The translations under genes and the position numbers were made by a program. Shown piece by piece: positions 3,318-40,617 of a stretch of DNA of 64,000 nucleotides; the stretch's first letter is position 1; every line of letters starts with the position of its first letter. Source of the DNA: Mesonia profundi (GTDB lineage: Bacteria; Bacteroidota; Bacteroidia; Flavobacteriales; Flavobacteriaceae). Under the pieces are notes generated by a model that was given only the letters and a program-made list of their open reading frames with translations, was not told the origin of the DNA and ran no database searches. The DNA lies in NCBI RefSeq assembly GCF_031085155.1, contig NZ_JAVHUL010000011.1, forward strand, positions 1-64,000. Direction: 5' to 3'.

Positions 3318-3917
3318 TTATTTATTTATTTTATCGGCGATTTCTAATGTTCTCTTAACCTGAAATGAAATGGCTTGTCGTTGTTTTCCATTGAGATTGC
3401 TTCCCCCCACAATACTAAAACCATAAGGATTACCTCCTGTTTCAAAAATCACAGGATCGGCATACCCTGGAGCTGCAATAATTGCTCCCCAGTGCATCAT
3501 TGTTTTGTAAAGTGAAAGTAAAGTACCTTCCTGTCCGCCATGCAGGTTGGCAGCACTTGTCATTCCACTTACAACTTTATTGACTAATTTACCGTTTTGC
3601 CAAAGCCCACCAGTGGCATCGATTAAACTCTTAACTTGTGAAGGAGCATCTCCATAACGAGTAGGAAAGCTAAAAATAATAGCATCTGCCCAATCGAGGT
3701 CATCTACCGTTGCGGTTGTTATTTCTTTGGTTTCTTTATAATGATTGTACCATTCTTCATTTTCTTTAATCACTTTTTCGGGTACGGTTTCTTCTACTCT
3801 TCGAAAACGAATTTTTTCAACACCTACATCTTTCGCCGCAGTTTCTGCTTCCTTTGCTAATTGATAATTGGTTCCTGTAGAGCTATAATATATAATAGCT
3901 AATTTTAGATTTTTCAT
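3318..3917 (-). CDS. wrbA: WrbA-type NAD(P)H:quinone oxidoreductase (flavodoxin family)
   Basis: The 199-residue product has the FMN phosphate loop YYSSTGTNYQLA at the N-terminus (~10-21), AIIFSFPTRYGDAPSQVKSL around residues 83-103 and the WrbA-type TSAANLHGGQEGTLLSLYKTMMHWG block (~119-143) that distinguishes type IV quinone oxidoreductases from short flavodoxins. Known members are tetrameric FMN enzymes that reduce quinones by two electrons. It faces tenA and stands alone. The 5' side holds no recognisable Bacteroidota promoter. Cytosolic. Confidence 0.9.
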   Translation of the reverse strand: MKNLKLAIIYYSSTGTNYQLAKEAETAAKDVGVEKIRFRRVEETVPEKVIKENEEWYNHYKETKEITTATVDDLDWADAIIFSFPTRYGDAPSQVKSLIDATGGLWQNGKLVNKVVSGMTSAANLHGGQEGTLLSLYKTMMHWGAIIAAPGYADPVIFETGGNPYGFSIVGGSNLNGKQRQAISFQVKRTLEIADKINK

Positions 3918-26411: not shown

Positions 26412-26439
26412 AGTTACTTTTGAGGGGATAAAGGTAATG

Positions 26440-26602
26440 ATACCAAATTAAACAAATAGTGTCGCTATTAAATCGTTTCTTTTATGCTTACTTTTTATTA
26501 AAATGATTACCATAACAAAGGCTATGCTAATCATTTTTAATTTCAATTAAACATAAAATAATTCAATTTTTTAATACGACATTACGTATTTAAATTGGTA
26601 TA
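26440..26602. repeat. Dispersed ~162-bp element, copy A (degraded)
   Basis: Begins ATACCAAATTAAAC and ends AATTGGTAT, imperfect inverted termini. It shares landmarks at identical offsets with the element at 40426-40587: GTCGC at offset 21, and AAGGCTATG at offset 78 versus 79, plus a similar 3' third (ACGACATTACG against ACGCCATTCC). This copy is more AT-rich, as if older. It lies upstream of the ABC transporter operon and downstream of dnaJ and encodes nothing. Confidence 0.75.
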
Positions 26603-26626
26603 AACGACCTGTTTTAAAACACAAAA

Positions 26627-39844: not shown

Positions 39845-40426
39845 ATGAGCCTAGACCAAGATTTGATGCAACGCGCAGATTCTAAATGTGAACTCTGCGG
39901 AAGTAAAGAAAACCTAGAAATATACCCTGTTCCTCCGGAAGAAAAAGTAACTGCAGATACCGCAGTGCTTACTTGTGAAACTTGTTTTGAACAATTACAA
40001 GATTCCGATAAAATAGAGCCTAACCATTGGCGATGCCTTAACGACAGTATGTGGAATACCACACCTGCCGTACAAGTGGTAGCTTGGCGTATGCTCACCC
40101 GATTAAAAAATGAAGGCTGGCCGCAAGATTTGCTGGACATGATGTATATGGAAGACGACACTTTAACTTGGGCAAAATCTGCCGGAGTACAAGAAGAGGA
40201 AGCTCCCAAAGGATTGGTGCATAGAGATAGCAACGGAGTCGTGATTGAAGCTGGCGATACCGTGGTTTTGATTAAAGATTTACCGGTAAAAGGTTCTAGC
40301 ATGGTAGCCAAAAGAGGAACGGCTGTAAGAAGAGTTTCTTTGGTTCACGACAATGAAGAACACTTGGAAGGAAAAGTGGACGGACAACAAATTGTGATTC
40401 TTACCAAATTTGTGAAAAAGATGTAA
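39845..40426 (+). CDS. PhnA (YjdM) family protein
   Basis: The 193-residue protein contains an N-terminal zinc ribbon (CELCGSKENLEIYPVPPEEK and a second pair CETC, ~15-60) and the C-terminal PhnA domain with LVHRDSNGVVIEAGDTVVLI (~133-152), DLPVKGSSMVAKRGTAVRRV and IVILTKFVKK. Once linked to phosphonate use, the family's function is uncertain. It is longer than E. coli PhnA because of a central insertion. Its stop codon (40424-40426) overlaps the first base of the dispersed element copy B. Confidence 0.88.
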   Translation: MSLDQDLMQRADSKCELCGSKENLEIYPVPPEEKVTADTAVLTCETCFEQLQDSDKIEPNHWRCLNDSMWNTTPAVQVVAWRMLTRLKNEGWPQDLLDMMYMEDDTLTWAKSAGVQEEEAPKGLVHRDSNGVVIEAGDTVVLIKDLPVKGSSMVAKRGTAVRRVSLVHDNEEHLEGKVDGQQIVILTKFVKKM

Positions 40427-40587
40427 TACCAATTTGACAATGAGATGTCGCATTCCAACTCGTTCATTTTTCGTTCTATTTTCTTGTTCACATTTTCCGT
40501 AGCTAAGGCTATGCAAATCGATCACAGCGGCATAGAACAAAAGATTAACTTCGTTCTCTGTACGCCATTCCATAATTAAACTGGTAT
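40426..40587. repeat. Dispersed ~162-bp element, copy B
   Basis: Starts ATACCAATTTGACAATGAGA and ends in TTAAACTGGTAT. The right end read inward (ATACCAGTTTAATT) is an imperfect inverted copy of the left end. It shares GTCGC at offset 21 and AAGGCTATG at offset 79 with the copy at 26440-26602. Its first base is the last base of the phnA stop codon, so the insertion or conversion ends exactly at the gene end. An antisense frame through it (ATG near 40573) is not accepted as a gene. Confidence 0.8.
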
Positions 40588-40617
40588 AAGCAAAATTTTT
40601 GCTCCTATTATAAATTT

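Follow-up and report, generated by a model that had tools for sequence, protein, structure and literature searches.

A probable family of 160-bp non-autonomous cut-and-paste elements (MITEs) with TWA target duplications in Mesonia profundi and other Bacteroidota

Bacterial MITEs, i.e. non-autonomous cut-and-paste elements, of 100–200 bp with long stem-loops represent a known class (PMC2229807), and ERIC copies have been reviewed as occurring at the 3′ ends of Yersinia genes (PMC10969869). In Porphyromonas gingivalis, the ends of the described MITEs match those of IS5-family elements (PMC4596501), and one of these MITEs, BrickBuilt, is described as strictly intergenic (PMC10969869). REPs, another class of small repeats, are only 20–40 bp long (PMC3733652).

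Here, we describe two sequence blocks of Mesonia profundi that are very probably copies of a roughly 160-bp MITE carrying the terminal inverted repeat (TIR) TACCAAWTTAA. Both lie in the window, by which we mean the whole stretch of 64,000 nucleotides that was analysed, and a preliminary description had already pointed to them as blocks beginning with ATACCA and ending with TGGTAT. Their positions were confirmed as 40426–40587 and 26440–26601; the length of 162 bp given for the first block stands, whereas the second is likewise 162 bp and not 163 bp, its end having been placed one base too far. As had been claimed, both blocks share GTCGC (offset 21) as well as AAGGCTATG (offsets 78 and 79). 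The pattern ATACCA-N131..160-TGGTAT occurs twice in the window, compared to a mean of 0.09 and a maximum of one occurrence in 100 shuffles. As the outer base of each block belongs to the target duplication, the element borders were set one base further inside, and copies A and B, counted from the initial TACCA to the final TGGTA, are each exactly 160 bp long (Table 1). The mismatch between the two flanks of copy A means that its duplication is either mutated or absent. Elsewhere in the window, a TPP riboswitch is located at positions 136–228 (RF00059, 75.5 bits).

Table 1. Positions of copies A and B, their flanking triplets and the conserved apex sequence in the window.
Feature	Position	Strand	Remark
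Copy B, complete 160-bp element, B-type subfamily, core forward	40427..40586	+	Sequence, blastn relatives
Left target-site duplication TAA of copy B	40424..40426	+	Stop codon of the phnA-like gene (39845-40426)
Right target-site duplication TAA of copy B	40587..40589	+
AAGGCTATG, 3′ half of the conserved apex hairpin, copy B	40505..40513	+
Copy A, complete 160-bp element, A-type subfamily	26441..26600	+
Left flank TGA of copy A	26438..26440	+	Mismatch to right flank TAA
Right flank TAA of copy A	26601..26603	+
AAGGCTATG, 3′ half of the conserved apex hairpin, copy A	26518..26526	+

Blastn searches of the own genome (3,077,385 bases in 76 contigs) returned 11 pieces with copy B and 33 pieces with copy A, which were merged by hand into 9 and 26 further places, respectively, many of them partial matches. 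With about 35 places in a 3.08-Mb genome, the earlier expectation of many copies per genome was borne out. The lengths of the 15 own copies for which both ends could be located ranged from 69 to 220 bp, with eight of them measuring 160–163 bp. The TIR word TWATACCAAWTTAA was found 29 times in the own genome and its reversed control not at all, while the apex word AAGGCTATGC occurred 17 times versus two for the reversed control; seven of its 12 forward matches lie inside elements and five do not appear element-like, and two of the five reverse matches are known copies (C11:48515 and C56:79494). The apex is also common to two further arm types, represented by L022 and L030 and by L079 and L083. 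The latter pair, together with L048 and L050 of genome G021, forms a further clan with the apex AACCGTAACTAAGGCTATGC or a close variant on different arms, and all of its members except L050 have TACCA ends.

Copies A and B did not match each other directly in blastn at an E-value of 0.001. Their kinship follows from intermediates, as the A-type copy L015 aligns with the B-type copy C14:19105 over positions 1–161 (67% identity, E = 3.5e-5) and both copies fit one 27-row alignment. Hence, further copies as well as an above-chance alignment were found, the latter linking A and B only via intermediates. The suggestion that copy A had become more AT-rich found no support because A and B represent two subfamilies, each with its own blastn relatives, and a decay of A from B is rejected on the same grounds. 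A chance resemblance of two AT-rich intergenic stretches would agree with the few words shared by A and B outside their ends and with the missing direct alignment, but is refuted by the window shuffles, the copies in the genome, the L015 link, the shared alignment and, as described below, 108 stretches elsewhere and the agreement of flanking triplets, which leaves its probability practically at zero.

In its general form, the family reads TACCAAWTTAA...TTAAWTTGGTA with a modal length of exactly 160 bp and flanks that are usually a direct repeat of TAA or TTA. The inverted ends postulated earlier correspond to the TIR TACCAAWTTAA on both sides, with 87.3% of the helix 1 cells being paired. Within 108 named loci, 128 end matches yielded 70 elements with two ends at most 300 bp apart, and 38 end matches stayed unpaired, only 13 of which are found no more than 300 bp from the edge of a locus. 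A size of exactly 160 bp was observed for 25 of the 70 elements, and further recurrent sizes were 74 bp (eight elements), 159 bp (six) and 181 bp (five). Identical flanking triplets were present in 55 of the 70 elements (TTA in 28, TAA in 27), a number never reached in 20,000 trials with shuffled left-right pairings (mean 28.3, maximum 45). TWA stands on both sides of 56 elements, and the same W is found on both sides in 55 of these. Since an extension of the TIR would give the opposite base, the shared W identifies the triplets as direct repeats, and the duplication therefore comprises three bases, TWA, which is a mark of cut-and-paste transposition. Equal triplets also flank 11 of the 15 own copies, so that the search for flanking duplications succeeded in both sets. 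A perfect duplication is absent from 15 of the 70 elements and from four of the 15 own copies including copy A; the 15 mismatched cases could mostly reflect point changes or wrong partners. Internally deleted forms measure 68–79 bp and 117 bp. A 74-bp form has near-identical copies at separate places of a single genome, and two of these (L122 and L178), located on different contigs, are identical and document recent copying of this form. In the smallest form observed, the two ends directly adjoin each other and give a palindrome of 18 bp that is enclosed by TWA triplets (G044:C36:3508-3531 and G045:C421:2723-2746).

These features also bear on the preliminary classification as a MITE- or REP-like mobile repeat, of which the MITE part is retained on account of the copies, the TIR, the 3-bp duplication and an empty site, while the REP part is dropped because length, TIR and target duplication indicate cut-and-paste transposition. 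IS200/IS605-type Y1 transposases are not known to generate a target duplication. A palindrome of the REP/REPIN kind, mobilised by a RAYT, i.e. a Y1 tyrosine transposase, would likewise be short, palindromic, intergenic and present in many copies, and some copies do contain a REP-like sequence of 25 bp; however, the 3-bp direct target duplication and a length of 160 bp with precise TIRs, compared to 20–40 bp for REPs (PMC3733652), make this origin very improbable. Membership in the REP/REPIN class was consequently rejected based on the 160-bp length and the TWA duplication.

Support for an insertion event comes from the gene that precedes copy B. This phnA-like gene, which scores 57.5 bits with TIGR00686 and thus remains below the cut-off of 80.2, has as its stop codon the TAA that serves as the left duplication of copy B. 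Its closest orthologue, in the relative G003 (86% identity), ends with VKKM-TAA followed by unrelated sequence and no element. In all 11 orthologues inspected (L306–L316; ten of the genus and one of the order, with three weak partial matches left out), the 200 bp after the stop codon are free of the element. An empty site as sought by the preliminary description is therefore available in G003 for one site only, namely that of copy B at the phnA-like stop codon. The precise abutment of copy B to this stop codon, which had been remarked on before, is accounted for by TAA being the target. Exact placement of the flanking triplet on a neighbour's stop codon was observed in seven of 65 elements, and none of the 65 overlaps a called open reading frame of at least 90 amino acids by more than 30 bp, as judged from simple calls in which the longest frame was kept and frames overlapped by longer ones were dropped first.

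According to the MITE reading, a putative DDE-type transposase encoded elsewhere would bind the ends and insert the element at TWA in trans, and insertions would survive where genes stay unbroken. This would include hits on a TAA stop codon, which the target duplication would restore, and read-through of such a copy may place a long hairpin in the RNA at the gene end. Landing on a TAA stop codon would offer a harmless entry into a compact genome and, at the same time, add a hairpin to the 3′ end of the gene.

Beyond the own genome, the TIR word TACCAAWTTAANNNNNTAATGTCGYA was detected in 108 stretches among 84,980 species genomes, corresponding to 32 assemblies by accession prefix. The record titles of 107 of these stretches name Flavobacteriaceae or its genera, Saprospiraceae, Prolixibacteraceae, Draconibacterium or 'Bacteroidetes', including several genera that we take to belong to the Flavobacteriaceae. 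The sole title from outside the Bacteroidota is that of a Eubacteriaceae MAG (L214, JAENWK010000072.1), a contig that is perhaps mis-binned given that a Flavobacteriaceae MAG of the same sample series (5_8_m) is in the list. Viral contigs yielded no match to the family, and plasmids and phages gave no blastn match with the one query used. A blast match to L015 at an E-value of 0.001 was obtained for four of 39 relatives besides the own genome, with 1–4 places each, some of which are short and doubtful; G005 carries a full-length copy of the B-type (L046). Among 197 further genomes drawn from the phylum, TWATACCAAWTTAA was not commoner than its reversed control (50 versus 73 occurrences), whereas TIR words in 24 carrier genomes, picked for having a family match and summed by hand, amounted to 318 versus 20 for the reversed control. 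The spread is patchy: the family is abundant in scattered genomes, and its end word is at chance level elsewhere in the phylum.

By structure prediction, the element forms a single long, imperfect hairpin whose arms show paired changes. Folding of 33 copies of 158–163 bp gave z-scores below −2 for 31 of them (median −4.9, 60 dinucleotide shuffles) and no better than −2 for the other two, and 91% of the predicted pairs join the two halves. An alignment was built from 27 of the 33 copies (mean column identity of 77%), leaving out L118 and L133, in which the apex differs or is replaced, and L130, L134, L167 and L171 to shorten the list. With the fold of a single row (L140) applied to this alignment, and with shuffles that ignore relatedness, covariation amounted to 0.169 compared to 0.081 after shuffling (0/500 shuffles), 80.2% of cells were paired (73.1 shuffled, 0/500), both sides had changed in 107 cells (52.4 shuffled, 0/500), and 25 pairs showed a both-sided change (19.3 shuffled, 2/500), while the number of further pair types was not above the shuffles (46 versus 43.0, 85/500). 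Sliding by 1–3 columns gave a covariation of at most 0.070. The proposed check for covariation in a folded form thus revealed paired changes above the shuffled level. RNAalifold returned no consensus structure for the same 27-row alignment, perhaps due to small bulges that shift the register. In 29 of the 33 copies, the apex word GTAACTAAGGCTATG has its best match at a distance of 71–73 bases from the left end.

Such paired changes across the arms, together with the modal length of 160 bp and an apex conserved across genera, could also be taken as signs of a conserved structured RNA or terminator that is under selection and was spread otherwise, its mobility being incidental. Placement between convergent genes, as seen for copy B and for 20 of 56 elements whose two neighbours were both called, points in the same direction when compared to the share of convergent gaps, which account for 9,992 of the 46,508 bp of gap sequence in these loci (elements included). 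We nevertheless regard this explanation as decidedly unlikely: the blank RNAalifold result counts against an RNA reading, no Rfam family reached its gathering score for the element (only the TPP riboswitch was found in the window), the family abounds in scattered genomes while its end word does not exceed chance in 197 other genomes of this phylum, 74-bp forms devoid of the apex still multiply, and arm-to-arm copying can also maintain palindromy.

Two smaller sequences were noticed within the hairpins. The same REP-like 25-mer (TACTTCGAC..CTAAGCAC or CTCAGCAC..) is located in the apical loop, between CTA and the GGCTATGC half, of the own B-type copies L004, L006 and L008 and of L143, a copy with another arm type from a Urechidicola croceus MAG, and L033 has a diverged REP-like 25-mer at the same point of the loop. 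With five copies in three arm types and two genomes, it looks as if the apical loop were a preferred landing site for this 25-mer. Separately, a small GC-rich hairpin of the CCCGTCCG..CGGACGGG type occupies the left arm of several B-type copies (L003, L005, L006, L007 and L008). An extended reading, which we consider unlikely, would describe a phylum-wide hairpin element without an autonomous parent, whose ends are moved by a stand-alone DDE transposase and whose apex (GTAAC-TAAG-GCTATG) is separately selected, forms the single-stranded loop of an extruded cruciform and is repeatedly entered by another Bacteroidota repeat. Transposase and element would, in that reading, constitute a cut-and-paste counterpart of the RAYT/REPIN system.

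With 160 bp, the element is too short for a transposase gene. An autonomous parent with the family ends was sought via DDE_Tnp_1 and DDE_Tnp_4, with loci inspected in part and draft assemblies in pieces, and none was found. Searches with PF01609 and PF13359 in 26 genomes each, including the own, gave 29 and one matches, i.e. 30 loci, without TACCA ends and equal triplets among the pairs listed. In the own genome and the 24 carriers, PF01609 produced 84 matches, about 50 of which were inspected (30 loci, consisting of L088 and 29 new ones, plus 20 further regions) and lacked family ends. No IS5/Harbinger-type transposase with TACCA ends was hence encountered among the 30 DDE_Tnp_1/DDE_Tnp_4 loci, the 29 carrier DDE_Tnp_1 loci and the 20 regions. 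The only DDE_Tnp_1 gene in the own genome (L088) has TAGTGTCC-type ends, as do relatives such as L232 and L233. In G041, the carrier with the highest density of TIR words (53 in about 2.0 Mb), 0.87 Mb (100 contigs, whole or first 20 kb) contained six end pairs 400–5000 bp apart, none with equal triplets. Allowing one mismatch, two facing pairs with equal triplets were found by eye among the matches listed, in two Tamlana genomes (about 415 bp, G042:C75:54591-55011; 2.3 kb, G060:C21:294662-296983), a yield to be read against a rough estimate of about one such pair by chance per genome. In L270 (G040:C352), a family copy was seen by eye close to a DDE_Tnp_1 frame, inside an apparent IS with ends ACTCCGTGAAAAA...

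One locus resembles an autonomous parent. Positions 3728–4902 of L200 (Psychroflexus gondwanensis) combine family ends and a TAA duplication with an intact ORF of 308 amino acids of the IS1595 family, as expected if the short elements were deletion derivatives of such an IS. However, the ORF lies within the right arm of a family copy that is otherwise complete, and five relatives (L276–L280; G057, G048, G043, G060 and G045) lack the family ends, with the visible ends of L200-type relatives being GAGTTAG.. or GAGGTCAGTA... L200 was therefore rejected as the parent and interpreted as a nested insertion, and a derivation of the family from it appears extremely doubtful.

The MITE reading has consequences beyond the two copies. 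A family defined by ends, target and consensus should allow recognition of many repeats in marine Bacteroidota, and its transposase becomes a concrete search target. The modal length of 160 bp, the paired changes and an apex common to subfamilies with different arms exceed what a decaying deletion derivative needs, which turns the question of what keeps the palindrome into a testable one.

Among the matches listed from the open-licence PMC literature, neither the end words nor Bacteroidota MITEs led to this family, and a 2024 review holds no word beginning with 'flavobacter' or 'bacteroid' (PMC10969869). The family is well supported and apparently new in print, while its class, that of the ERIC, RUP and Correia kind, is already known. 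The 3-bp TWA (TNA) duplication is a mark of the IS5/PIF-Harbinger type, and the IS1031 subgroup of IS5 generates a TNA duplication. PIF/Harbinger elements duplicate 5′-TWA-3′, the same triplet as here, whereas ANT is given for the bacterial IS5 elements used in that work (PMC4482050). ERIC-, RUP- and Correia-type MITEs resemble the family in their length of about 100–200 bp and in transcripts predicted to form long stem-loops (PMC2229807, PMC10969869), a likeness in described features; they belong to other hosts. For RUP, IS630-Spn1 was proposed as helper and the targets are TA (PMC2229807), in contrast to TWA in the Mesonia family. BrickBuilt, MITEPgRS/464, MITE239 and MITE700 of Porphyromonas gingivalis are MITEs of the same phylum that also lack transposase genes, yet their TIRs (GAGACC.., ACGTGAGTTCGA..) are unlike TACCAAWTTAA, and the duplications of BrickBuilt vary in length, unlike the 3-bp TWA reported here (PMC4596501). 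Finally, MITECca01 of Cardinium is likewise a mostly intergenic Bacteroidota MITE with a high copy number (169), but differs in its length of 240 bp, its restriction to one lineage and the continued presence of its parental IS982-family element (PMC9769881).
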